From Flavihumibacter soli (GTDB lineage Bacteria; Bacteroidota; Bacteroidia; Sphingobacteriales; Sphingobacteriaceae): 64,000 nt of DNA. Below, in pieces: positions 1,110-57,900 of this stretch (its first letter is position 1; each line of letters begins with the position of its first letter). The translations under genes and the position numbers were made by a program. The notes beneath the pieces were generated by a model. That model was not told the origin of the DNA. It made no database searches and saw only the letters and a list, made by a program, of their open reading frames with translations. The stretch lies in the NCBI RefSeq assembly GCF_010692725.1, contig NZ_JAAFZB010000096.1:434001-498000 (forward strand), read 5' to 3'.

Positions 1110-1388
1110 CGCGTTATTTGGGGGCCAGGCTTACTTCCTGTCCATTCGCCAAATCTATTTATCTTAAGGGGCTAATCAAATTCTTAAGGAGAAATGATTC
1201 AAATTTGTCGCTGTACCCAGGGGAAACGCATTAGAGTCACCACCTGCAATTTGTTTTATCAAAAAAAGAGATAGCTTTAAAAATATCGTTTTGACTGCGG
1301 ATTCTATATTCATTTAATTTCAATTACCTGAATACCAGAATGAAACTCGCAATAAATACTCTATAAGGAATTTTAGAATAACAAATTC

Positions 1389-5569: not shown

Positions 5570-5636
5570 AAATTGACTAATCGACAAATTGACTAATCGA
5601 CAAATTGAACAAATTGACTAATTGACAAATGGACAA
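5570..5636 (+). repeat. Short imperfect tandem repeat ahead of the second Fe-S gene
   Basis: Repeats of the type ATTGACTAATCGACAA and shorter variants run through the gap between the two Fe-S genes and into the first codons of the second one (ATGGACAAATTT matches the repeat ACAAATTGACAAAT). This replaces any recognisable ribosome-binding site. Confidence 0.7.
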
Positions 5637-6420
5637 ATTTAACATACCAACCATGGCCCAGATGGCCGCTAATGGCGAAGAGCCTGAGATCCTGTTTTGG
5701 GTAGGCTGTGCGGGAAGCTTCGATGAACGGGCACAAAAGATCACCCGGGATATATGCAAGATACTGCATCATGTAGGCATTAAATTCGCCGTTTTGGGTA
5801 CCGAAGAAAGCTGCACCGGTGATCCCGCCAAAAGAGCCGGCAATGAATTCCTGTTCCAAATGCAGGCGATGACCAATATCCAGGTCCTGGATGGTTATAA
5901 TATCAAGAAGATCGTGACTGGCTGTCCGCATTGCTTTAACACCATCCGTAATGAATACCCGGGACTGGGAGGCAATTATGATGTGATCCATCACTCGCAG
6001 CTTATCCAGCAGCTGATCGACGATGGCAAGCTGAAGGCCGAAGGCGGCGAGTCATTTAAAGGAAGAAAGATCACGTTTCATGATCCCTGCTATTTAGGTC
6101 GTGGCAACGGGGTATATGAAGCGCCTAGAAGAGCCCTGGAGATCCTGGATGCGGAGCTTGTGGAGATGAAGCGCTGCAAGTCGAACGGTCTGTGCTGTGG
6201 AGCGGGCGGTGCGCAGATGTTTAAGGAACCTGAAAAGGGCGCTAAAGACATCAATATAGAACGCATCGAAGAAGCCCTTGACCTGAAACCGAATGTAATT
6301 GCCGCAGGCTGTCCTTTCTGCATGACCATGCTGAGCGACGGCGTCAAGAATTTCGATAAGGAGCAGGAAGTGCAGGTATTGGATATCGCCGAGATAACCG
6401 CCCGTGCTAATGGTCTTTAG
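5629..6420 (+). CDS. (Fe-S)-binding CCG-domain protein, HdrB-like subunit
   Basis: 263 aa soluble protein with two cysteine-rich CCG-type domains: WVGCAGSFDERAQK then TGCPHCFNTIRNEYP, and HDPCYLGRGNGVYEAPR then NGLCCGAGGAQMF with AAGCPFCMTML. It is likely the catalytic or electron-accepting partner of the membrane Fe-S protein upstream. The ATG at 5629 lies inside a tandem repeat; a second ATG at 5653 (before AQMAANGEEPE) would give a protein 8 residues shorter and may be the true start. It ends 22 bp before the convergent gene at 6443. Confidence 0.88.
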   Translation: MDKFNIPTMAQMAANGEEPEILFWVGCAGSFDERAQKITRDICKILHHVGIKFAVLGTEESCTGDPAKRAGNEFLFQMQAMTNIQVLDGYNIKKIVTGCPHCFNTIRNEYPGLGGNYDVIHHSQLIQQLIDDGKLKAEGGESFKGRKITFHDPCYLGRGNGVYEAPRRALEILDAELVEMKRCKSNGLCCGAGGAQMFKEPEKGAKDINIERIEEALDLKPNVIAAGCPFCMTMLSDGVKNFDKEQEVQVLDIAEITARANGL

Positions 6421-19147: not shown

Positions 19148-19600
19148 TCAGTCGATCGAAATGATGGTTGACTGCCTTGCGATCAGCCACCACCGGTTAT
19201 TTTCCTTTAACCAGATGTTCGTAAATCGCCTGGTGACCGTTTTGCCAGCATTGCTGGTTGATCCCTTTGGCTTTATTATCTCCTTTCCCATCACGATCGC
19301 CGTATTATTGTTAAAGGTCACTCTTTCAATCAACCGCTCGAATTTCTCGTAATCAATCTTTCCTTGCTTAACCCGGTTAATGACTTCCCTCAGGCCGACA
19401 ATCTTGTTTTCGGGATTATGGACAACGATCTTAGGCGACATCATACGGAGCAGCGCAGTCGTATCTGCATTCAGAATTGCTTCCCGCTCGGCGTTCTCAA
19501 TCCGCCTTATTTCTGTTTCCTGAGTATTCTGTGCTAAAACACCTTTACAGGCTAAAAAACAACAGATAAACAGGGTGGTAAATTTAAATTTGACCAGCAT
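19148..19600 (-). CDS. Secreted NTF2-like (DUF4440/SnoaL) protein
   Basis: 150 aa with a signal peptide (ends GVLAQ). The rest is the DUF4440 pattern: ENAEREAILNADTTALLRMM, IVVHNPENKIVGLREVIN and a C-terminal FTNIWLKENNRWWLIARQST. Cone-shaped NTF2-like fold; members bind or hydrolyse diverse small ligands, and no specific role is visible. Confidence 0.8.
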   Translation of the reverse strand: MLVKFKFTTLFICCFLACKGVLAQNTQETEIRRIENAEREAILNADTTALLRMMSPKIVVHNPENKIVGLREVINRVKQGKIDYEKFERLIERVTFNNNTAIVMGKEIIKPKGSTSNAGKTVTRRFTNIWLKENNRWWLIARQSTIISID

Positions 19601-30742: not shown

Positions 30743-30773
30743 TTTTCTGATCTGCCAGCGTAGCGTATATATT

Positions 30774-30815
30774 AGCAAGGAGTGGATTAATGTCTTATTT
30801 CCTGCGTCTAACACT
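30774..30815 (+). repeat. Fragment of the island's structured RNA element
   Basis: 39 of 42 bases match 43271-43312 inside the island (AGCAAGGAGTGGAT...CTTATTTCCTGCGTCTAAC). It lies outside the present island boundary, next to a CCTTTTAAA island-type motif (30859-30867), and marks older island debris. Confidence 0.7.
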
Positions 30816-30983
30816 GATACCCTACACAGATCCTACCCAAGAACGAATAGTCCGCTTGCCTTTTAAATAGAGAACTTCGGTATCCCAAGCACCAGACAAG
30901 TGCTGTTCCTAAATAGATTTTCAAAAATCCCTTCCAGAACTTGCATTAAGAAATAAAAATGATGATTATTGCACCTCTAAAAC

Positions 30984-31045
30984 TGGGATTAGCTCAGCTG
31001 GCTAGAGTGTCCCGATGGAAATCGGGAAGGTCAGCGGTTCGAATC
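30984..31045 (+). pseudogene. Degenerate tRNA remnant
   Basis: GGGATTAGCTCAGCTGGCTA plus GAG matches the 5' half of tRNA-Ala/Ile. Then come an anticodon-like stem-loop TCCCG-ATGGAAAT-CGGGA (8-nt loop, GGA in the middle) and a T-loop (AGCGGTTCGAATC) whose 3' stem partner is missing. There is no acceptor 3' strand. Probably a scar of an earlier integration. Confidence 0.6.
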
Positions 31046-31061
31046 ACATAAATTGCCAAAC

Positions 31062-31104
<43 letters not shown>

Positions 31105-31229: not shown

Positions 31230-31685
31230 TTAAATCATCCCTTCATCCGTGAAGCTGAAAAAGCTTTCACTAGTTATAATGATATGATCTAAGACTCCAA
31301 TGTCGAGGATCTGTCCTCCAGTCTTGATCTTCCTCGTCAAATCGATATCAGCTTGACTTGGTTTCAAGTTACCTGAAGGATGGTTATGTACCAAGATGAT
31401 TCCGCAGGCATTGGATTTTATAGCTGCTGCAAAGATCACTTTGGGATCTGCAACCGTTCCTGTGGTACCTCCCAAGCTAATATCAATGAGTCCTAAAACT
31501 CTATTAGCTCGATTGAGAAGCATTACTTTAAATTCCTCAATAAACTCAATAATTTCGTAGTTCCAATGTTTCTTAAGTACTTCAAATGCGTCTCTGGATG
31601 AGTTGATCTTCGGCCTGAGTGAGGATTTAACTGTTGATCTGTAGATAAGTTGCACTTCGGCAACGGTCATGATTTGATTTTCCAT
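31230..31685 (-). CDS. RadC-like JAB-domain protein
   Basis: 151 aa, a JAB/MPN metalloprotease-fold domain with the motif HNHPSGNLKPSQADIDLT and the upstream Glu in EFKVMLLNRANRVLG. It lacks the N-terminal HhH region of chromosomal RadC (about 220 aa). Short RadC proteins are typical cargo of mobile elements in Bacteroidota; the molecular role is unclear. First gene inside the left end. Confidence 0.9.
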   Translation of the reverse strand: MENQIMTVAEVQLIYRSTVKSSLRPKINSSRDAFEVLKKHWNYEIIEFIEEFKVMLLNRANRVLGLIDISLGGTTGTVADPKVIFAAAIKSNACGIILVHNHPSGNLKPSQADIDLTRKIKTGGQILDIGVLDHIIITSESFFSFTDEGMI

Positions 31686-34512: not shown

Positions 34513-35328
34513 TTAAGCTGGTTCTGTATTCGATAAGCATGCTAGCTTAAATTGTTTGCCAAAGTCAGTCATTATCAGCATCTTTTCTTCAATAATAATA
34601 TCTGATCTGTTATTATATCTTGACATGATTTGACTTTTTAACGTATCATAGTTTGATTTTTTGGTATAAGCCATTCCCGATGGAATTTCAATCAAACCTA
34701 ATCGTGATAAATTTACGATAGCGGCACTTAAATTGAGTCTAAAGTCAAGCTTCTCATCTAATTCGGGGGGGATTATCATTAGGTTAGATTCAAGTAAATG
34801 TTGTCCCCTATCCTGATCGAGTTCAATTGAAACATCCACTAAAGGGTTTATTATTGAAGATGCTAAAAAATCAAAGATAATTGCCTCATCAGTCGACAAA
34901 TTTTTAATTATTTCAACAAACCCCGGATGAGCTAGTTGAGAACTGTTTTTGTTCATCGCATTTGCGATAAGGTTCGCGTAGAGTTCCCTCAAATTTACAT
35001 CGTTTGCTGTAAAGCGAAGGGCCTCCAAAGATGGACCAGCAACAGCCGGGTTTGGGGTCTGAATATCATCGGGGCTCACGCCTTTTAATTTTTCTTCCAA
35101 ATTCTCAGCCAGCCAATCTCCAATTCTTTCGTACCCCCAGACCATAGCCTGTAAAGGCGATAGAGCCACATTAATTACGCCTGCTAATGTTCCTAATGCC
35201 TTACCAACCTGTTGAGTTGCTGGCTTTAGCAAGTCAGGGTAGACAGGTGGGACAATCTGTTTCGATAACCCTTCTGCAACTCCTTGAGCAGCACTTTTGG
35301 CTAGATCATTCAGTTCCTCGCTCATCAA
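34513..35328 (-). CDS. DUF4393/Abi-alpha-family protein
   Basis: 271 aa. It carries the family signature in the centre: AGPSLEALRFTANDVNLREL followed by YANLIANAMNKN, then AHPGFVEIIKNLSTDEAIIF. The N-terminal third has an amphipathic or membrane-interacting stretch (GKALGTLAGVINVALSPLQA). As I recall, this family is named Abi-alpha in Pfam for a link with abortive infection. First gene of a three-gene operon; 9 bp to the EVE gene. Confidence 0.78.
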   Translation of the reverse strand: MMSEELNDLAKSAAQGVAEGLSKQIVPPVYPDLLKPATQQVGKALGTLAGVINVALSPLQAMVWGYERIGDWLAENLEEKLKGVSPDDIQTPNPAVAGPSLEALRFTANDVNLRELYANLIANAMNKNSSQLAHPGFVEIIKNLSTDEAIIFDFLASSIINPLVDVSIELDQDRGQHLLESNLMIIPPELDEKLDFRLNLSAAIVNLSRLGLIEIPSGMAYTKKSNYDTLKSQIMSRYNNRSDIIIEEKMLIMTDFGKQFKLACLSNTEPA

Positions 35329-36952: not shown

Positions 36953-39832
36953 TTAGCGTGTAATCGAAGATATTAGTTCGGTCTTCTTTAACGTAGATTT
37001 GGTTTTATTCACTTTCTCGTCGACAAACAGACCACTGGTATATTTCTCATATAGCTCAAATAGAAACTCCATCCTCTTAGCTTCGCTCGTGAAAGGTTGT
37101 GATCTATAAGCTAGATCCACAGCTTTGTCAAGTTCATTATGAGCCTTAACTAAGTCTGGTGGCATTGTGATTGGATCATATAAATCCGCTAATGAAGCAC
37201 CCTTTTGTATTATATCTTCTTCCTCACCTTTCCAAGCAGCATTATTAAACTGCTCTTCGGTGGGTGGTGATGATCGAATTGTACCGATTACTTTATCGGT
37301 CTGATAAGTTTTTCGTACCTCCAAGACCTTTTGTGCTGCCAACTCTACAGCTGCCACTTGTTTAGTACTAGAACCTTCAGGCCATGGGTAATTGTTGTAA
37401 ACAATTGTATTTGAATAGCTGTAGTCACTCTTCATTCTGCCGCAGGTATGACGCATCCATGTGTTATGCATCAAAGAAGTCAATATTCCGAAATGAAATA
37501 AAGTGGCATTGGGAATAATAAAAGTCTTGTCAGTTACAATATTTTCTTTAGTAAGATAAGCTATTGGAATGTACTTTCTATTCTCGGATGATACTTTGGG
37601 AACGAGTAAAAAATCATTCTCCGGTTGTCTTTCTTCGGCAAATAGATATGGAAGGTCGGCCATCTTACGGGTGCCAATTCTGGAACTTGACTCTCGAAAC
37701 GACCTTACCCTCTTAAATATTGCTATAAACTGAGGAATATTTCTGAATTCAACAGGGTTTACGTTCTTTAGCCATATGCACCATCTCGTAACGTTATTGA
37801 TAAAGTCATCGCCACTAATAAGTCTTCTTAAATACTGACTGATTGATGGATTTTCATTTATTAGATCTTGTTTATCCTTATCCTTTAGAATCAAATAACC
37901 ACCATCTCTTGCCGCACTTCCCGATTGCATCCTTGGTACATTACAGATTGGCTTTTGTATTGACGTTAAAACTATATCATTACCTTGGATTAGATAAGGA
38001 CTAATGTTCTTCACAAATATCTCCTGAGGATCCGATGTTATTGAGTTGTATTCATAAATTGATTTTCGGTCAACATCGAAGTTGGCAAAACCTATGATAA
38101 CCACATGCACAGCTGCGTTACCCTTAGCTTCATTATTCCACTTAAAGGTTTTATGAGCAAAGTGAATTTTGATTTGGTATTGGTTGTACAAACTATTCCA
38201 TAAAATTCCAGGCTGTTCACCTTGTACAATCGAATTAGTAGATACGAAAGCTACTTTTATTCGTGTGTCTTGTACAAGCTGAGCTGCTTTAATGTACCAG
38301 CCGGTGACATAGTCTAACATTCCCCATGAGCCGATGCCAGTTGAAACTAAGGCCATGTCACGCTTTTGTTGAGCGCTTTGATATGAAGTTCCCAGAAAAG
38401 GAGGATTACCTAATATGTATGATAATTCACCTTTGTTGACTACACTTTCCCAATCAGTTTGAAGGGCATTGGCATGGACAATGGTTGCAGCTTTTTTTAG
38501 AGGCAATCTGACAAAATACTGCCCAAACTCATTACTAATGAGCATGTTCATTTGATGATCCATCAGCCACATGGCAACTTCAGCAATACGAGCAGGGAAC
38601 TCTTCATATTCGATTCCGTACATCATATCGACATCAAGCCATATAATCTCCCGCACATCTAAAAACCCTTGTCCACCTTTGTTTAAAGCTCGAAGAATCT
38701 CGATTTCCAATAAACGCAGCTCTCGGTAGGTAATAACCAAGAAGTTTCCACAACCACAAGCCGGATCTAAGAACTTTAGCTTGCTTATTCGTTTATGAAA
38801 CTCTCCCAACTTGCCCTTATTGGTTTTTATCGAATTAAACTCCTGCCAGAGGTCATCCAGGAACAAAGGTTTGATCAGCTTCAAAATGTTCTTCTCACTC
38901 GTATAGTGTGCACCAAGGTTCCTCCGCTCTTTCGGGTTCATCACACTTTGAAACATTGAACCGAAGATCGCAGGTGAGATTTTACTCCAATCTATATAAC
39001 AGCAGTCCAACAGTGATCTTCGCATCTTTGCATCGAAGCTGGCTGAGGGCAACGTTTCTTCAAACAACTTTCCATTTACATATGGGAAGCCATTTAGCTG
39101 TTCATCAATGTTTTTGAAGCGCTTTTCATTAGGAGTGTTAAGAACCTGAAATAACTCTTGGATTTTAGAGGCTAGATCGCTTCCGTCTTCGTTGGTCCGA
39201 TCTTCTATATAATTTTGAAATTGTTGTTTCTCAAAGATGGTCGTATCCTCTGCGAATAAGCAAAATAGAATACGGACTAGATACACTTCAAGTGGATGAC
39301 CCTCGTAACCAATTTCCTCTAACCTATCATGGAGTTTGCCCATCAGGTCAGCTGCCTTTATATTAACAGGGTCCTGTTCTTTGTAGATGCGTTTTTGGTA
39401 ACCTGCTATGAAACCAAAATTCTGAACGTTATGAACTAGATCTTTTAGCTTGAACTCAAGAGTTTTGTTTTCTTCAGTGTCAAATAACCTGAAGTTTTCG
39501 AAGTCTGAAACTAGGATGTATTTTGGAAGTTCGTGTTCCTTAAGACCGTGGATGTATTCTTTTGCCTGTGTAAAAGCCTTGTCAAGGTTTTTACCCTTGC
39601 TTTTCATCTCTATCAGGATATTGCCCTTCCAGAGTAGATCTATGTATCCATCAGCTTCACTGAGTTTTTTAACTCTGTGTTCAAATGTTCCGACACGCTT
39701 CCGGGTAATCCCGAAAACATTAAAAAAGGCTTCAATGAATGATTTAGCTTCCGCTTCTTCGTTGTAAGTATCCTCCCACTCTTTAGAAAAGGTAACTGCT
39801 CTTTCTTTAATTTCATTCCAGCTTAAAGCCAT
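36953..39832 (-). CDS. MmeI-like (type IIL) restriction-modification enzyme
   Basis: 959 aa single-chain enzyme. N-terminal nuclease: D65 in DGYIDLLWKG and ILIEMKSKGKN with E75 and K77, giving D-x9-E-x-K as in MmeI. A helical connector is followed by the methyltransferase: motif I DPACGCGNFL (about 355) and motif IV GNPPFLG (about 477), the latter for N6-adenine methylation. A target-recognition region (about 620-830) and a C-terminal helical tail follow. Such enzymes methylate one strand of an asymmetric site and cut about 20 bp away. Recognition specificity cannot be read. Confidence 0.9.
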   Translation of the reverse strand: MALSWNEIKERAVTFSKEWEDTYNEEAEAKSFIEAFFNVFGITRKRVGTFEHRVKKLSEADGYIDLLWKGNILIEMKSKGKNLDKAFTQAKEYIHGLKEHELPKYILVSDFENFRLFDTEENKTLEFKLKDLVHNVQNFGFIAGYQKRIYKEQDPVNIKAADLMGKLHDRLEEIGYEGHPLEVYLVRILFCLFAEDTTIFEKQQFQNYIEDRTNEDGSDLASKIQELFQVLNTPNEKRFKNIDEQLNGFPYVNGKLFEETLPSASFDAKMRRSLLDCCYIDWSKISPAIFGSMFQSVMNPKERRNLGAHYTSEKNILKLIKPLFLDDLWQEFNSIKTNKGKLGEFHKRISKLKFLDPACGCGNFLVITYRELRLLEIEILRALNKGGQGFLDVREIIWLDVDMMYGIEYEEFPARIAEVAMWLMDHQMNMLISNEFGQYFVRLPLKKAATIVHANALQTDWESVVNKGELSYILGNPPFLGTSYQSAQQKRDMALVSTGIGSWGMLDYVTGWYIKAAQLVQDTRIKVAFVSTNSIVQGEQPGILWNSLYNQYQIKIHFAHKTFKWNNEAKGNAAVHVVIIGFANFDVDRKSIYEYNSITSDPQEIFVKNISPYLIQGNDIVLTSIQKPICNVPRMQSGSAARDGGYLILKDKDKQDLINENPSISQYLRRLISGDDFINNVTRWCIWLKNVNPVEFRNIPQFIAIFKRVRSFRESSSRIGTRKMADLPYLFAEERQPENDFLLVPKVSSENRKYIPIAYLTKENIVTDKTFIIPNATLFHFGILTSLMHNTWMRHTCGRMKSDYSYSNTIVYNNYPWPEGSSTKQVAAVELAAQKVLEVRKTYQTDKVIGTIRSSPPTEEQFNNAAWKGEEEDIIQKGASLADLYDPITMPPDLVKAHNELDKAVDLAYRSQPFTSEAKRMEFLFELYEKYTSGLFVDEKVNKTKSTLKKTELISSITR

Positions 39833-42201: not shown

Positions 42202-42613
42202 CGCTAATCATGGTGTAGGATTCTCTTCCCTTGATGTTAAAATATGTTAGCTCTGTTTTAAACCTTCCATTGCCACCAAGCAATTGAACTTCCAATAAGC
42301 CGACAGTATTAGTTTTAGGATCCAGAAGATCCACATAATGATTACCATCCGCGGCTCTTACGCGAAATGTAAGCATAAGCTCCTTCCAAGCTCCTTGTTC
42401 GCATTCCCGCACTCGAACTTTACTGCCCTCTTTGTAAAACGTCAGTTCCATACCAAAAGAGCAATTATCCTTCACTCTAGTGAAACGAGCACCGTTTACG
42501 GTATGCCAAGTCCGGTTGCTACTAAGCGTTAATGAGTCTCGAAACCTACCGATTTTTTGTGAATAGCCGTTTATTGATCCAAGCGAGAGTATTAAAATAA
42601 TTAATGCTTTCAT
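42179..42613 (-). CDS. Secreted protein of unknown function
   Basis: 144 aa with a signal peptide (ends GYSQ). Beta-rich mature part (SFGMELTFYKEGSKVRVREC, LTFRVRAADGNHYVDLLD, GLLEVQLLGGNG). Two-gene unit with the TM protein downstream. No family recognised. Confidence 0.52.
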   Translation of the reverse strand: MKALIILILSLGSINGYSQKIGRFRDSLTLSSNRTWHTVNGARFTRVKDNCSFGMELTFYKEGSKVRVRECEQGAWKELMLTFRVRAADGNHYVDLLDPKTNTVGLLEVQLLGGNGRFKTELTYFNIKGRESYTMISDGHQKKH

Positions 42614-42787
42614 CCGTGCAAATTCTAATGTATCTACTACAGTATTAATTTAACGATTAACATTGAATTGTGCGTAGCGATTAAATATTTTCTATAATGT
42701 CATTGCTTATTAGTCACGATCGAGTTAATTCCAACGGATAAAAGCTTACTTTTTGAATGGACTTTGCGAGCCGCCCTGCGAGTTTGA

Positions 42788-43453
42788 GGTCAAGGTGGGA
42801 GCTACGGTAGCAGGAGGTACGAGTGCGGTAGCGACCTATGTAGAAAGGACGAGTCTTTTGGAAGCAGAGGTAAGGAACGGGCAAAAGACTAACGTCCTGC
42901 ACTACACAAGAGCTTGGCGAACTTTTTGACCCGAGGGTAATGAGCTACGGTTCTCAAAAAGTGTGACAAGCTCGAAGCCTGGACCGATTCGCAGGCGAGC
43001 ACAAGAACTAAGAGAAGCGGGAAGATTTTATAGGGTTGAGCGCAGCGAGACTTTATAAAAGATTTAGGAGCTTCTCAATGAAGTAACGGATTACTTAGAT
43101 CAAGCTGGGTGACAGATTGCGAAGCCAGGGTGAGACTGCACATTTTTTTAGCGATGGGTATATAGAGTATAGGCTATAAAAAATATGTGCAGACTAGTGT
43201 GTTGGAGCAAGTGGAGTTAATGTGCTTGCAAAGCTTATTAACGAAACGACATCTGGCGACCTGGTTGATAAGCAAGGAGTGGATGAATGCCTTATTTCCT
43301 GCGTCTAACGCTCAAGTTAGTACTAAACGCTCATTGATGAGACTGCTGGCAGTGAGCGAAGTAGAAAGCACTGCGGCCTATTTACCCAGAAAGAAAAGAC
43401 CAAACCATCCCTTTCTCGCTCTAAGCCACAAAGAGAGGAAGGGATGAGTTTGG
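42788..43453. ncRNA. Large non-coding region with many long hairpins
   Basis: At least seven stem-loops lie end to end. GGTC(42788)/GACC(42833) with GCTAC/GTAGC inside. AGGACG+AGTCTTTTG(42846-42860)/CAAAAGACT+CGTCCT(42882-42898). GAGCTTG(42910)+CTTTTTGA(42922)/TCAAAAAG(42954)+CAAGCTC(42967). GAGAAGC(43012)+TTTTATA(43026)/TATAAAA(43054)+GCTTCTC(43070). CTGCACAT(43136)/ATGTGCAG(43185). GCAGTG(43349)/CACTGC(43369). CCAAAC+CATCCCTT(43400-43413)/AAGGGATG+GTTTGG(43439-43453). No plausible gene is present. The transcribed strand is not certain. Confidence 0.6.
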
Positions 43454-43599
43454 GAATGATGTATCTGCTCATGTTGCCGTTGTTGTTGCCGTCGTTGTTT
43501 CCGTTTTTGTTTCTTGCTGAACAATGGACCCAAAAGCGCTCTAAAATCACGATTCAATAAAAAGCTAACAGGATGTTGAAAACTTATTTACTGCACGTC

Positions 43600-43629
43600 T
43601 TGTATTTCGTCTTACTTCATTTATATTTG
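43600..43629 (+). promoter_or_regulatory. Consensus promoter of the coiled-coil/wHTH gene
   Basis: TTG (43600-43602), 19 nt, TATATTTG (43622-43629): full match to the Bacteroidota consensus, about 22 nt before the ATG at 43652. This shows that the structured region to the left is not the leader of this gene. Confidence 0.8.
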
Positions 43630-43651
43630 TTGTGTTCTATAAATCATAGTC

Positions 43652-44164
43652 ATGAAAGACGGAAACAATACACTTAAGGAGCTAAATGAGTTAAAAGGCA
43701 AACTTGAATCACAACTTCAAGCTATCAATGAAACTATTAGGCTATATGAACTTAACTCTCAACTTATTCTAATTCACCAAACGGCATTCCATGCGAATGC
43801 GGGCACCACCACTAGCCCAAGAAGAATTGAGAACAGCAATGACTACAATCGAAATGGCAGCTTTAAGTATAAGATTACCTATGTCTTGTCGAAAGCGAAT
43901 AGGTTTTTATCACTTAAAGAGATAGCCGATATGGTTTCTCAACTAGAACCTGAATCTGATATCGAAGCGATAAAACGTGGAGTAGGCAGCGCGAAGTCAA
44001 ATCTATTAAAAGAAAAAAAGATTGTAAAGTACGTGGTTGGCAAGTCCAACAATAATAGCTTTTACGGTAGGGAAATATGGCTTGATGTGAACGGTGTCCC
44101 GCACGACCAACATAATATCAATGAGTCCGCATTAACGAAGAAGGAGGAGACTGAATTGTTTTAA
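43652..44164 (+). CDS. Coiled-coil protein with a winged-helix-like domain
   Basis: 170 aa. Residues 5-40 form a coiled coil (ELNELKGKLESQLQAINETI). Residues 70-140 look like a winged helix (YKITYVLSKANRFLSLKEIA, then the recognition-helix-like AIKRGVGSAKSNLLKEKKI and the wing NNNSFYGREIWL). Probably a DNA-binding regulator that dimerises through its N-terminus. Single gene with its own promoter and terminator. Confidence 0.55.
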   Translation: MKDGNNTLKELNELKGKLESQLQAINETIRLYELNSQLILIHQTAFHANAGTTTSPRRIENSNDYNRNGSFKYKITYVLSKANRFLSLKEIADMVSQLEPESDIEAIKRGVGSAKSNLLKEKKIVKYVVGKSNNNSFYGREIWLDVNGVPHDQHNINESALTKKEETELF

Positions 44165-52290: not shown

Positions 52291-52983
52291 ATGGATAATG
52301 CCAAGCGCTTCATTTTGAAGCCAACTTTCAACAACCTAACAGAACAAGGGTTGAACTACAAAGATATACTGACCTACGTTGCTATAAGGTCATACTATAA
52401 CACAAGAGATAAATACTGTTACCCAAGCTATAAGACACTAGAAAAAAGAACCGGTCTCAGTTCTAAATTCATTTCACAATCGATCATGCGCTTAGATAAA
52501 GCTGGATACTTACACGTTTGGAAACTTGGTAAAGGCAGGGTACAGCATTGTTATAAATTTCCAGATAATGGAACTTACCATAAGATACCTTATGACCTTT
52601 TAGAGGATAAGTCCTTGAATCCTCACGAAAAGTCTATGCTATTGTTGCTAAGAGAGTACTGTAGTGATGACCTGGTAAGCGATAATTCGATTAGGGAGAT
52701 TGCATCCTTATCTGGTTTGACTTATCGAACTATCCACAAGCAGTTTCAAGCACTTACTTTAAAAGGTTTCATTCGCTATGAGGAGATTGAAAATACTGAA
52801 TCAAAGACGATCTCGAAGGTCTTTGGGTTTACGGACAAGATCAACTGGCAATTTAATGATGGCTCGATAAAGATAGTGGGAAACTCGGCATTCAATGTTG
52901 ATTCCATCATAGATATGTGGGCCAACTCAGTAAGGTGTAGATATGCGAATAATAAACTGATAGCTCAATTACAATCCGGTTAG
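52291..52983 (+). CDS. Two-winged-helix protein, replication-initiator-like
   Basis: 230 aa. First wHTH at about 20-95 (KDILTYVAIRSYYNTRDKYC then YPSYKTLEKRTGLSSKFISQ), second at about 115-175 (EKSMLLLLREYCSDDLVSDN, then IREIASLSGLTYRTIHKQFQ). Tandem wHTH proteins starting this way are common replication initiators or regulators of plasmids, phages and satellites. It follows a repeat-bearing A+T-rich gap and ends with a terminator. Initiator or regulator remains open. Confidence 0.65.
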   Translation: MDNAKRFILKPTFNNLTEQGLNYKDILTYVAIRSYYNTRDKYCYPSYKTLEKRTGLSSKFISQSIMRLDKAGYLHVWKLGKGRVQHCYKFPDNGTYHKIPYDLLEDKSLNPHEKSMLLLLREYCSDDLVSDNSIREIASLSGLTYRTIHKQFQALTLKGFIRYEEIENTESKTISKVFGFTDKINWQFNDGSIKIVGNSAFNVDSIIDMWANSVRCRYANNKLIAQLQSG

Positions 52984-53018
52984 ATGGTCTACCGTATAAA
53001 AAATAGCTTACGACATAA

Positions 53019-53044
53019 AAAGGCACCTTAGAGGGTGCCTTTCG
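53019..53044 (+). terminator. Terminator after the two-wHTH gene
   Basis: Perfect stem AAAGGCACC / GGTGCCTTT, 6-nt loop, 36 nt after the stop; T tail is short (TTTCGTG). Confidence 0.75.
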
Positions 53045-53221
53045 TGTTTATCGCAAGTACTTACTTTAAAAGGTAAATTGCTAACATGCCTCTTAATCGA
53101 GATCGACCGATGGTTTTACGTTACTCATTAAGCTAAAACCTGGCTTTGATCAATTTTAACGCTAAAAGGCTCGTTTACCAACAAATTGAGTAATAACGTC
53201 GTTTTAGCTTAAACTGGAGTC

Positions 53222-53288
53222 TGTCCTAAAATTTCACAAGTGACTGGTCGTTACCTATAAAGGGTATTGATTTCAATATTTTAGGACA
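53222..53288. repeat. 67-bp inverted-repeat element, copy 2
   Basis: TGTCCTAAAA ... TTTTAGGACA, the same 67 bp length as at 36382 with an internally related centre (TGACT, CTATA). Lies just after the helicase-like gene; a half copy (TTTTAGGACA, 55247-55256) lies upstream of the same gene. Confidence 0.7.
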
Positions 53289-53306
53289 AATGGTCCTTCT
53301 CTAATT

Positions 53307-55151
53307 TTATGCAGCATTATCGATTGAGTAAAGGGCTTTTACTATTTTGATTTGTTCGGCTCTTGTCCCTGTAGCTGTACGTTCCTTCACTAATTCAATT
53401 TTAAACAACCCGAGCCTATCCAAATCGTCTGCAAACGCAGTTTTTTTTGAACCGTCAGCTTTTTTTAACCCTAGTTCATTATAAATACCCTGTAATATCG
53501 ACTTAACCTCTTTTTTTGAGTACACTCTTATCTCAAAACGTTCAGTGACGAGTATGTGTAATCTTGCTTCTTGATTTTTATTGCTTTTTTCTATCAGTTT
53601 TGCTTTCATTTTATCGTTATTGTATCCCAACTCCTCTAATGTTTTAACACCTAAAACGTGGTATGCCTCAAAGAGAATTGGGCTTGCTTCTTTCCATTTC
53701 TTTATCTGTCGCTGAGCTTTACCAAATTCATAGGACCGAGGAGAACTATTATACAATTCGACTTGTTCAATTATTTCCCTGTTAATTTCAGCCGCGGACC
53801 TTCCTCTCTTTATAGTTTTGAGGCTAAACTTTATTATCTCCGTCTCATAGTTGCAGTTTTGCCAGGCTTCTTCAATTGACTCTTTTGATCTATATTGGAG
53901 CTTAAACGATTTTTTATATACGATTTGATCTATCTTTTCGTAGTCGATGATAGTTTTTGCATCAATTACTGAACTGACATTATTAACAAAATCTCCAAAG
54001 CCTAGGATGTCTGTCATATCCTCCTCCCTACAGTCGGTCTTAAACTTAATATAATCAGCGATGTGCTTCTTGGCACTATAAATAACGTTTTCTTCAATCG
54101 ATTCTCGAGTTCGCATAGTCGTTGGTTCAATGGTGTTTGTTATGTGAATTATCTGATTTGGTCTTTCTTCAGGATCTAACCTGATCCTTCCGACAGCTTG
54201 AAGACCTCTGAAGTTTATACCAACTATCGAATGAGGTATAGATTCGTCTGTTACTAGTACCATTGTATCTAACGGCTCACCACGTAAATCCCAACCCTCG
54301 TTATACCTACAGGTAAAAAAGTTAAATTTTTTAAATTGAGCTGCGTTCGTGTCGCTTTGATAATATAAGGAAGCTTCCTCCAAGTTTATCATATTCTTTT
54401 CATCATCTCTACAATAGATATTGACATCAGTAATCCCTGCCGTTGCTATAGCATTACCTATTGCAGTTACTGAGTTGTAAAAAATGAACACGTTACCGGG
54501 GTACGATTCAGGATGGGTCAAAACGTAATGTAATGCTGACTTAGGATCATCATCCACTACTAACGAAATCTTACCTAATTTTTGATCGAACTCGATTTTG
54601 TAATACGTTAACTCTTTAAATTTAGGATTAGATGAAGGATATGGAGTAGCTGAGCCCATAGCTTTGTTTTTAAAGGACCAAAAATATTTAAACGGAGTCA
54701 AGATGTCTTCTCTGAACATGTCACAGGCATAGCAGTGACATTCATCCAAAAAACAGAAGAAATCATCATAAAGTGTGTCTTCAATACCTAGACTCTTAGC
54801 TGCTTCAATTATTTTCCAGAACCCTTCAGGAGTTACAACTAGCTTCTTAAACTGAATTTCAGCATTTGCTAAGTATTCAGCGACGTCCGCGGGGGTTACC
54901 CTTTCCGCAACTTTGAATGGGGAGAAGTCCGCATGTTCCGTAACCTTATCATCTATGATGGGTAGGTAGGGAATTGTCATGATGCTATGTCTTAGAGATC
55001 TAAATTCCGAGTACGTCAAGCCGAAGCCCGGTTTGCCCTTATCTACAACTGAGTTATTCGGTATGAGTCCGTCTGGATTATTTTTATCTGGGAAAGCGTC
55101 TTTGAAACCTGCAGTCAATGGCAGGTTTATTCTTACTGTACTGTTTAACAT
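53307..55151 (-). CDS. SF2 helicase-like protein with an atypical P-loop
   Basis: 614 aa. Motif order fits an SF2 helicase: a P-loop-like VVDKGKPGFGLTYSEFRSLR at about residue 35, walker B-like FFCFLDECHCYACD (DECH), motif III-like MGSATPYPS, and VGINFRGLQAVGRIRLDPE (motif VI with QAVGRIR). In the P-loop the canonical Lys of GKT is Leu (GFGLT), which I believe is a property of this Bacteroidota family. C-terminal 250 aa are helical and unassigned. Perhaps a nucleic-acid-remodelling defence or replication protein. Confidence 0.62.
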   Translation of the reverse strand: MLNSTVRINLPLTAGFKDAFPDKNNPDGLIPNNSVVDKGKPGFGLTYSEFRSLRHSIMTIPYLPIIDDKVTEHADFSPFKVAERVTPADVAEYLANAEIQFKKLVVTPEGFWKIIEAAKSLGIEDTLYDDFFCFLDECHCYACDMFREDILTPFKYFWSFKNKAMGSATPYPSSNPKFKELTYYKIEFDQKLGKISLVVDDDPKSALHYVLTHPESYPGNVFIFYNSVTAIGNAIATAGITDVNIYCRDDEKNMINLEEASLYYQSDTNAAQFKKFNFFTCRYNEGWDLRGEPLDTMVLVTDESIPHSIVGINFRGLQAVGRIRLDPEERPNQIIHITNTIEPTTMRTRESIEENVIYSAKKHIADYIKFKTDCREEDMTDILGFGDFVNNVSSVIDAKTIIDYEKIDQIVYKKSFKLQYRSKESIEEAWQNCNYETEIIKFSLKTIKRGRSAAEINREIIEQVELYNSSPRSYEFGKAQRQIKKWKEASPILFEAYHVLGVKTLEELGYNNDKMKAKLIEKSNKNQEARLHILVTERFEIRVYSKKEVKSILQGIYNELGLKKADGSKKTAFADDLDRLGLFKIELVKERTATGTRAEQIKIVKALYSIDNAA

Positions 55152-56420: not shown

Positions 56421-57638
56421 CTAATCCAGACTTGAGCAAACTCTTTCATTTGCTTCATCAACAACTTGTTTATCAAATTTGTCTAGATAGACGTTAGTTA
56501 TCGCATTTCCATACTCGTGGCCTAAAGCTTCGGCAATCACTTCATTGCTATACCCCATCTTCTTAGCAGTTGTGGCCCATGAATGTCTAACAGTATATGA
56601 AGTAATGTCCCCATCATATTCGATCAGCTCCCCTAATCTCTTAATATATTTATTGATAAGCTTAGTTCTACTCTTCACTATACGCATTAAGTTTTCCTCT
56701 GATTTAGGTTTAGAATTAATAATAGGTAAAATATAGTCTTTTACTTGACGCTCTGAGGCGATGTAAACCTGGATAATCTCAGATGCTTGAGGTACCACCT
56801 TGATGTCGTACCACTTGCCGGTCTTTTTCCGTTTATACTCTATCCTACCGTTATGAACATTTTTGGGACCGAGTAGTGCTAAATCAATTATCGAGATTCC
56901 AATGAGATAGAATGATAGTAGAAACCAATTCCTTACATGCCATATTGTTGTATTTTTTATAAGGTCTAAGTTCTTAATCTGTTTAATAAGGTCCTTATTA
57001 ACAGCTCGCTTTCGTGTTCGTTCAGGCTTCAATTTAAAGTCATCAAAGGGGTATAATGACTTATCTACTAGCTTCTGCCTAATCGCTTTATTATAAAAGA
57101 TTCTTATTGTTCTTATATATAGATAAATAGAGTTTGGCTTAATTTCCCTTAGCAGTAAATACTTTTGGTACGAATCCAAAAACAAATAATTGATTTGCTC
57201 GAATGCTAAGTCATCCTTAGGATAAAACCCTTTAAGCGCGTTTACTGTAGATTCATACACCCAAGCGTTCCCAACTTTATCAATAGATTTCAGGTCTGCA
57301 ATAAGATTATAGGCGAATTGATAGACAGTGATCTTAGGAGGGATCGCTAACACTATTTTGTTTGGATATTTTAAATAGGAGTTAACATCGCTCTCTGTTC
57401 CTAACAGTAACTCAGACTGCATATCGGCAAGGTCCTTCTTAAGCTTAGAATTAAGCACCTTATAGTTGTGATGGCCCTTCTTAATAACTTGTAGTTTTTC
57501 GTCCCAGTCATCAACTCTAACTGAGAGTCCAGCATATCTGGTCCGTGTTTTCCTGTTAAAGTAGATCTGGTAGTTTAGTGGATAAGTTCCGTCTGACTTA
57601 ACTCTTCTTTTGTCTAGAATAATCTTAATTGATACCAT
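56421..57638 (-). CDS. Tyrosine recombinase (integrase) of the island
   Basis: 405 aa from ATG 57638 (MVSIKIILDKRRVKSDGTYP); the frame is open to 57713, but that extension looks untranslated. N-terminal arm-binding and SAM-like domains, then the catalytic domain: FLLSFYLIGISIIDLALLGP (the usual first Arg is not seen; this Bacteroidota subfamily has Ile/Asn there), GRIEYKRKKTGKWY, SYTVRHSWATTAKK (H-x-x-R-type box), ALGHEYGNAITNVYLDKF with the Tyr nucleophile. It ends with a direction away from tRNA-Ala, 137 bp from it, as expected for an att-adjacent integrase. Confidence 0.9.
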   Translation of the reverse strand: MVSIKIILDKRRVKSDGTYPLNYQIYFNRKTRTRYAGLSVRVDDWDEKLQVIKKGHHNYKVLNSKLKKDLADMQSELLLGTESDVNSYLKYPNKIVLAIPPKITVYQFAYNLIADLKSIDKVGNAWVYESTVNALKGFYPKDDLAFEQINYLFLDSYQKYLLLREIKPNSIYLYIRTIRIFYNKAIRQKLVDKSLYPFDDFKLKPERTRKRAVNKDLIKQIKNLDLIKNTTIWHVRNWFLLSFYLIGISIIDLALLGPKNVHNGRIEYKRKKTGKWYDIKVVPQASEIIQVYIASERQVKDYILPIINSKPKSEENLMRIVKSRTKLINKYIKRLGELIEYDGDITSYTVRHSWATTAKKMGYSNEVIAEALGHEYGNAITNVYLDKFDKQVVDEANERVCSSLD

Positions 57639-57699
57639 TGTGCTTAGCTTAATGGTCAATTGCATACCCTCATGTACGTGCGATGTACGTGCAGTTAGT

Positions 57700-57900
<201 letters not shown>

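Follow-up and report, generated by a model that had tools for sequence, protein, structure and literature searches.

In integrons, each cassette gene is followed by an attC, a short inverted-repeat site associated with an integron integrase. There are few large structured RNAs without a known function, and no role has been assigned to the known phage-linked examples. Among the latter, GOLLD and ROOL are carried in phages and prophages and form RNA-only complexes (PMC12286853, accessible part). Genomic islands of Pseudomonas combine a tyrosine integrase, RadC, and phage-defence cargo at tmRNA/tRNA genes (PMC12595487, in the portion available), and a microbiome survey reported thousands of candidate RNAs, including the Bacteroidetes candidate HMP_4078, a palindromic sequence of 109 bp located near phage integrase domains (PMC8040213, partial text).

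Here we analyzed a 64,000-nt stretch of Flavihumibacter soli (NZ_JAAFZB010000096.1, positions 434,001-498,000, forward strand), hereafter "the window", to which all unqualified coordinates refer. A stretch of this window, 42788-43453, had been predicted from its letters to be a gene-free, hairpin-packed, and possibly large structured RNA belonging to a class of islands.

A gene-free and strongly folded element

The element (Table 1) sits in a gap of about 1 kb, between open reading frames (ORFs) ending at 42613 and starting at 43652. The sole ORF of at least 80 aa within this gap is an 86-aa frame with a GTG start, and no credible gene is found there, in line with the predicted absence of genes. 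The closest relative, at locus L009, aligns over the whole element with 510 of 687 aligned positions identical. Stops interrupt all six frames of both the window element (7-17 per frame) and L009 (4-16 per frame), and the gaps in their alignment are 1-3 nt long. A protein-coding reading was rejected since no frame is conserved between the two sequences, and a frame conserved as protein is what the original prediction had named as evidence against itself.

Table 1 Features of the window around the structured element and its host island
Feature	Position	Strand	Basis or remark
Structured RNA element, ~690 nt	42766-43456	+	82% identity over 574 nt to L009; 696-to-693-nt alignment; folding
Main body of the RNA element	42766-43300	+	3' extension onward to ~43456
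Core domain	42903-43002	+	Long hairpin with symmetric internal loop GCGA/GUGA, then AGCCTG...CAGGCGAGC hairpin
Second, long-range hairpin	43101-43270	+	Arms ~43101-43117 and 43251-43270, GCGA/GUGA loop again; sequence, fold
Conserved 3' motif GGATGAATGCCTTATTTCC	43281-43299	+	Aligned in homologues
Terminal 3' hairpin of the extension	43400-43453	+	Fold; kept in genomes G004, G007, G010
Partial diverged 3'-domain copy, just outside the left repeat of the island	~30767-30905	+	Limits by eye
Left direct repeat, 5' part of tRNA-Ala, island end	31062-31104	+	43 nt identical to 57775-57817
RadC-like protein	31230-31685	-	PF04002, E 3e-38
Abortive-infection protein Abi_alpha, island cargo	34513-35328	-	PF14337, E 2e-48
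MmeI-like restriction-modification enzyme, island cargo	36953-39832	-	Five MmeI domains
170-aa gene next downstream of the RNA	43652-44164	+	No family over its cut-off
Replication-initiator-like protein, downstream of the RNA	52291-52983		
614-aa helicase-like backbone protein	53307-55151	-	28% over 514 aa to Sphingobacterium 606-aa protein, E 6e-36
Tyrosine integrase of the island	56421-57713	-	Pfam PF00589, PF13102, PF17293
tRNA-Ala; first 43 nt are the right repeat	57775-57849	+	ARAGORN

Folding energies on the plus strand were far below those of shuffled controls, the comparison that the original prediction had proposed. Over 42640-43470, the minimum free energy was -276.6 kcal/mol on the plus strand (z -10.9; 0 of 20 shuffles as low) and -204.8 kcal/mol on the minus strand (z -3.8), while a tighter 560-nt stretch compared with 60 shuffles gave z-scores of -5.5 (plus) and -4.1 (minus). 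We also scanned the whole window in 212 segments of 300 nt on both strands (424 segment-strands). Here, 42767-43066 on the plus strand ranked 3rd of 424 (z -5.1), whereas 43067-43366 (z -1.2) and 43367-43666 (z -1.6) were ordinary; the 3' half of the element pairs over long range. By this measure, the claim that hairpin density far exceeds that of other intergenic regions is borne out for the 5' part only, and single-window folding is weak as proof of an RNA for the 3' half. A separate hairpin-rich tract, at 52967-53306, occupies the interval that separates the genes for the replication-initiator-like and 614-aa proteins in this island; its minus strand held the lowest z-score of the scan (-6.7 at 52967-53266; -4.4 over 340 nt), and the tract perhaps corresponds to terminators plus an origin, or to a second RNA.

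The main body is organized around two hairpins with the same type of internal loop (Table 1). The core domain scores 89.5 bits (E 9e-22) with R1, the covariance model of this core, for which the window is one of 24 training rows. It includes an inverted repeat (42910-42929/42954-42973), and the TGGxG and TGxCA of its internal loop are invariant in 24 of 24 rows. Some Solitalea copies, L010 and L020 being among the copies examined, carry a short palindromic repeat (CCCTTCGACTGCGCTCAGGGTGACG) in the core-hairpin loop, and the query positions that cover this repeat (~173-220) have many matches in other genomes of the family. The second hairpin is the equivalent of helix 14 in the alignment of Sphingobacterium copies, and the Sphingobacterium RNA ends at the equivalent of the 3' motif, where its cargo starts. 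Beyond this motif, the 3' extension with its strong terminal hairpin is found in the window's genus, and pieces of it recur without the body on contig 84 of the same genome, which holds broken relatives of the element, and at 30771 in the window. The recurrence at 30774 noted by the original prediction is indeed present: 45 nt at 30771-30815 match the element at 91%, within a diverged copy of the 3' domain. On contig 40 of genome G010, the core (2248-2346 of L284) and the terminal hairpin (5592-5653) stand 3.2 kb apart, as if cargo lay between them.

The element resides in an integrative island of about 26.8 kb, delimited by the 43-nt repeat and the integrase beside tRNA-Ala, i.e. by the tRNA direct repeat and end-adjacent integrase of a tRNA-targeting integrative element. 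It lies 11.7 kb inside the left end of the island, with RadC, Abi_alpha, and the MmeI-like enzyme upstream, and the initiator-like and 614-aa proteins downstream. With the RNA so far inside the left repeat and the named defence genes upstream of it, the gene order seen in Sphingobacterium (see below) is not kept here. The 614-aa protein has no Pfam or PHROG match, and its 606-aa Sphingobacterium counterpart has weak relatives in five phage records, one of which is labelled DEAD-like helicase. Directly before the left repeat, a degenerate tRNA-Ala-like sequence (30985-31050) is probably the relic of an earlier integration.

Distribution across Bacteroidota

Among 100 relatives, own genome included, DNA matches to the element were found in 10 genomes. 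Searching genome contigs with a 20-base core pattern yielded 117 stretches; from these and from loci collected before, 71 places passed a filter (A-rich sequence before TGACA, identical ones removed), and 66 loci were left once five had been removed by eye (L061, L069, L084, L151, and L154). Every kept locus with a listed organism title belongs to Bacteroidota (35 of 35; titles were listed for 80 of the 117 stretches, and 21 kept loci have none). Carriers include Sphingobacterium, Solitalea, Mucilaginibacter, Flavobacteriales (including Fluviicola and Crocinitomicaceae), Phocaeicola, a Porphyromonadaceae bacterium, and others. The search of Bacteroidota with a covariance model, another check proposed beforehand, detected the core with R1 under stricter filters in 17 of 395 genomes across the class, representing 13 of 196 genera and nine families, and a query made from the 5' half matched 27 of 80 Sphingobacterium genomes. 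The element is widespread but sporadic across Bacteroidota.

Copies differ in length by clade, with 305-395 nt in 25 Sphingobacterium copies, ~525 nt in Solitalea, and 573-741 nt in 18 Flavobacteriales-type copies, the latter being those of 25 chosen loci that have the 3' motif, a few of them titled Chitinophaga or Emticicia. Most Sphingobacterium copies are alike from about -141 to +245 around the core and divergent beyond, unless they have a cargo in common, and their RNA is bordered by GCTCGCC at the 5' end and by ...GGAATGCC(T/A)TATxxCC at the 3' end. These comparisons show the element to be a discrete unit in different surroundings. At seven Flavobacteriales-type loci (L155, L156, L166, L149, L126, L079, and L144), an extra kb upstream (about -1300 to -300) is partly conserved and devoid of long ORFs; in several it follows a conserved gene of ~139 aa, and in L149, L155, and L156 it repeats part of the RNA sequence. 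The RNA may be longer or double in loci of this type.

Outside cellular genomes, the exact 20-base core pattern, by which diverged copies could be missed, matched 13 stretches of viral contigs, none of them a real copy on reading, and BLAST against 50,697 phage records gave no match to the element. Plasmid records gave one 40-nt match at 87.5% (E 6e-3). We further compared the sequences with the 4227 families of Rfam 15, including GOLLD, ROOL, OLE, HEARO, introns, and tmRNA. At the gathering threshold, only two tRNAs were found in the window and one tRNA in 17 homologous loci, and a known RNA family was rejected for these sequences; when the stretch itself was searched at E <= 5, four matches were returned, all far below threshold.

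Compensatory evolution and working strand

Evolution is better evidence for structure than single-sequence folding. In an alignment of 21 Sphingobacterium copies (400 columns) folded by RNAalifold, 42 of 110 pairs are changed on both sides while 95.6% of cells pair. The covariation score of this alignment was 0.248, compared to 0.109 when shuffled (0 of 500 shuffles reach it, a control that ignores kinship among sequences) and at most 0.059 with slid partners. A broader alignment of the core (24 rows, including the window, its paralogue, Solitalea, Mucilaginibacter, and one Flavobacteriales sequence) has 11 of 21 pairs changed on both sides, with 95.2% of cells pairing and, likewise leaving kinship aside, 0 of 500 shuffles reaching its score. 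The pairs predicted for the window itself could be followed in L009, in which 18 double changes keep pairing (mean 6.3 and maximum 12 in 200 random placements) and 49 pairs are broken (random mean 73.1, minimum 59).

Compensatory changes thus exceed chance across homologues, and they show a deeply covarying fold around two long hairpins with a common GCGA/GUGA-type internal loop. The original prediction was right on both the fold and the island, and the covariation that it had proposed to look for is strong; that the folded sequence acts as a large structured RNA is probable on the folding and covariation results.

Which strand and which molecule work was addressed in three ways. Consensus energies favor the plus strand, both in Sphingobacterium (-84.5, vs -49.2 for the minus strand) and in the 18 Flavobacteriales-type copies (-67.7 vs -54.1), with column-shuffled means of -7.8 and -0.8. 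We then forbade G-U pairs in the prediction, so that the structure would be neutral between strands, and counted columns with any G-U against columns with any A-C. These stood at 17:11 and 7:3 in pairs predicted on both strands and at 20:11 and 10:3 in the union, in a test whose excess is inflated by sequence relatedness. Finally, single-sequence z-scores of 12 copies ranged from -1.0 to -7.2 on the plus strand, with weak values for L149 (-1.8) and L105 (-1.0), and the minus strand was lower in 5 of 12. Based on these consensus energies, G-U excess, and mixed z-scores, a plus-strand RNA is moderately favored over a DNA site as the working form.

A regular resident of integrative elements

To place the element in its genetic context independently of the RNA, loci were also collected from the protein side. 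A search with the 614-aa protein returned 13 loci in 11 of 60 genomes, the window's included, and R1 found the RNA at 11 of these 13, which confirms the predicted membership in an island class. As far as they could be matched, six of the 11 positives had supplied rows to R1, so that the figure outside the training set is 5 of 7. At the other two loci, R1 did not detect the RNA within the 20 kb searched (G025:C6) or on a 7-kb contig (G032). RNA and 614-aa gene are convergent in 11 of 11 loci, 2-18 kb apart, and with two query proteins an integrase was found beyond the 614-aa gene, on the strand of that gene, in 7 of 11 (L284 has one on the other strand).

Neighbourhoods chosen by the RNA give a similar set of genes. 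Among 20 from Sphingobacterium, genes on the opposite strand and downstream of the RNA encode RadC in 10 and the 606-aa protein in 7, and a tRNA gene is present in 12, always on the strand of the RNA and 5' of it (12 of 12, 0.2-8.6 kb away). In 18 genomes searched in full for integrases, comparison of coordinates placed one 8-13.5 kb beyond the RNA for 8 of 21 copies. Gene order around the RNA is not fixed, as RadC is upstream in the window, G023, G025:C25, and G010:C4. Overall, the Sphingobacteriaceae RNA is shown to be a regular resident of integrative elements with the 606/614-aa protein, a tyrosine integrase, often a RadC-like protein, and often a nearby tRNA.

This linkage bears on the notion that the RNA itself is a non-autonomous mobile element, intron-like or retroelement-like, spreading with attached genes. 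The presence of several copies dispersed within one genome (Solitalea longa has at least six) and of 5'-truncated copies with the 3' end kept would be expected of such an element, yet the copies are more simply explained by linkage to one backbone, seen at 11 of 13 loci. Rfam scans found no intron family, no reverse transcriptase occurs among the listed families (first 25 of 61) of 59 neighbouring proteins, and no insertion inside a gene was noticed, which leaves this reading very improbable.

Several observations concern the ends of these elements. Locus L278 (G003:C1:240000-259999) has two back-to-back integrases with R1 matches at both outer sides (1186-1288, plus strand, 39.8 bits; 19383-19480, minus strand, 26.7 bits), as if two elements stood head to head. 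When the left flanks of L118 and L162 were used to look for empty sites in 93 genomes, none was found. This search turned up a palindromic att-like site near tRNA genes. With a GGGGGTATA centre, it lies upstream of several Sphingobacterium RNAs, at times adjoining tRNA genes (L147, L116, L057, L118, L237, L238, and L242-L244). Locus L147 has two of these sites, at -201 and +2654 relative to the core, which bracket the RNA, two genes, and a terminal hairpin within ~2.9 kb. A site of this kind at every copy was rejected, since a regular expression finds one only in a minority of Sphingobacterium loci.

Genes at the 3' end and possible roles

Downstream genes have a distinct arrangement in Sphingobacterium. 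Of 28 next ORFs of at least 75 aa found among 29 non-redundant loci, 26 are on the plus strand. For 27 loci with a recognizable 3' motif, 24 have a plus-strand ATG ORF of at least 90 aa near it. In 10 of the 21 distinct cargo N-termini, three of which come from one family, the first ATG falls 9-28 nt after the RNA 3' end, in a count that looks at the plus strand only. A promoter would not fit between RNA and gene at this spacing, and the cargo mRNA is therefore expected to include at least the 3' part of the RNA, unless transcription starts from a promoter inside the RNA; a leader or adaptor role is thereby favored in Sphingobacterium. Outside this genus, the first downstream ORF of at least 100 aa runs in the direction of the RNA in only 12 of 35 cases (14 of 41 when the window and five more loci are counted), hence a leader role cannot be general and the RNA must also be able to act alone. 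In the window, ~196 nt separate the RNA from the next start codon, and the original statement that the element is not the leader of the adjacent gene may hold there; it does not extend to Sphingobacterium, in which the 3' end of the RNA is often directly followed by the next gene.

We therefore propose a new family of large structured RNAs of mobile islands, functioning as plus-strand RNA and, in Sphingobacterium, as an exchangeable leader or adaptor, a combined reading that we rate about evenly between right and wrong. Its least certain part is the latter, in which the Sphingobacterium RNA would be a cis-acting, exchangeable 5' leader and adaptor. Transcription would proceed through the fold into whichever cargo gene sits at the conserved 3' end (GGAATGCC-xTATxxCC), and the fold would set cargo expression in step with the state of the element, e.g. 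silencing it as long as neither the element nor a helper is active. In Flavobacteriales-type copies, with neighbours mostly pointing the other way, the same RNA would be made as a separate transcript and, by analogy with GOLLD and ROOL, perhaps acts alone outside Sphingobacterium as an RNA-only complex. If the leader reading is true, many unrelated immune systems would share RNA control. A bolder version, possible though doubtful, is a universal adaptor, i.e. a large self-folding leader to which the element attaches any acquired defence gene, placing unrelated immune genes under one RNA-based control; a single regulatory fold would then operate across unrelated immune systems and be spread over a phylum.

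The orientation of neighbours outside Sphingobacterium could instead suggest a free-standing ornate RNA of the GOLLD/ROOL kind, abundant and forming an RNA-only complex that serves the element, with the nearness of cargo incidental. The 23 of 35 next ORFs that point the other way are arranged as beside an independent gene, and size, complexity, the link to mobile elements and tRNA, and the lack of an obvious dedicated protein partner are all shared with these RNAs in the available text of PMC12286853. Against this stand the Sphingobacterium cargo start codons that abut the RNA 3' end, and the 25 sequences upstream of Sphingobacterium 5' ends, in which a few pairs are alike and no shared promoter was seen by eye. 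The lack of an Rfam match, and of a real copy in the viral contigs and phage records searched, also contrasts with GOLLD and ROOL, which that text places in phages and prophages, and we consider this reading unlikely, if a serious contender.

The RNA 3' end is also where loci part. In five related Flavobacteriia loci (L149, L155, L156, L166, and L089), the RNA and a following nuclease gene are conserved, and between them lies either nothing (60 nt) or ~1.3, 2.3, 4.6, or 1.4 kb of different genes, the inserts starting right at the RNA 3' end. In L077, a single cargo gene is followed by an identical repeat of the terminal 34 nt of the RNA, and in L057 more than 70 identical 3' nt are repeated past three ORFs. 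Cargo that varies exactly at this end, such repeats beyond it, and the many partial copies that keep the 3' end would all be explained by a DNA-level site, at which the folded strand or the 3' end serves as a recombination site for cargo entry, like attC or tRNA 3' ends. We nonetheless judge this quite improbable: repeats of the 3' end were found at about four of 66 loci, a recombination site would need far less sequence than this element has, the helices of the element covary throughout, and the excess of G-U over A-C is not predicted by DNA folding. Moreover, two of the contig-84 fragments lack the 3' end, and the window island has its own ends elsewhere, at the 43-bp tRNA-Ala repeat.

The cargo itself is diverse. 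Pfam and PADLOC annotation of 59 downstream genes, out of 136 downstream ORFs, identified SAVED, Abi_2/AbiD, KAP/PifA, GmrSD, NACHT, AlbA, a CBASS E2-like protein, and others, each named defence family occurring in only one or two of the 59 (first 25 of 61 families listed). As a side-by-side control, 20 of the 41 eligible loci were picked at random and searched with PADLOC (E <= 1e-8). The first gene downstream of the RNA had a hit in 3 of 20 and the first gene upstream in 4 of 20, compared with 1 of 10 other window genes; these numbers are too few to show any enrichment, and defence cargo specific to the 3' side of the RNA is not supported. In 12 Sphingobacterium loci (L102, L147, L159, L162, L164, L184, L190, L191, L192, L251, L259, and L264), the RNA or its cargo is followed by a hairpin different from that of the window's 3' extension, in which the stems vary and the interior, GAAACCCTCxAAxGTTTC, is conserved; it resembles either a dedicated terminator or a second small RNA motif.

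Comparison with known systems

The genetic context of the present RNA is firm: the backbone recurs, the RNA keeps a fixed orientation towards it, and what lies at the 3' end of the RNA changes between loci, so the function of the RNA is testable by deletion. The covariance model can also serve as a marker for such Bacteroidota islands, for which the cargo need not be known. No description of this RNA was found in the titles and abstracts of the literature searched, which is weak evidence of novelty.

We judge the family to be new, and of the same sort as the large mobile-element RNAs GOLLD and ROOL. Like these, as portrayed in the accessible part of PMC12286853, it spans several hundred nt, has an elaborate conserved secondary structure and a neighbourhood of mobile elements and tRNA, and comes with no known protein partner and no assigned function. 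Unlike GOLLD and ROOL, and without an Rfam match to either, it is found in integrative islands of Bacteroidota, its cargo genes abut the RNA 3' end in Sphingobacterium, and carriage by phages or prophages was not observed in viral contigs (exact pattern) or phage records (BLAST).

The joining of variable genes at a conserved folded element is reminiscent of integron cassettes and their attC. The present RNA differs in its size of 305-741 nt (305-395 nt in Sphingobacterium and 573-741 nt in Flavobacteriales-type copies) with covarying pairs, and in a gene orientation that is not constant between clades; the integrases seen lie kb away. An identity with attC was rejected on these grounds.

HMP_4078 shares with the present RNA its occurrence in Bacteroidetes and a mobile-element neighbourhood, and is set apart from it by description only, being a palindromic sequence of 109 bp (PMC8040213, partial text). 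The closest parallel for the host elements is provided by the Pseudomonas islands of PMC12595487, which in the portion available likewise have a tyrosine integrase, a tRNA gene with direct repeat, a RadC homologue, and defence cargo. That portion does not mention a structured RNA, whereas the present islands, found in Bacteroidota, carry the 606/614-aa helicase-like protein and a large structured RNA. To the extent that this portion allows a comparison, the present elements look like a Bacteroidota counterpart of the Pseudomonas islands, with the 606/614-aa protein and the RNA as their distinctive parts.
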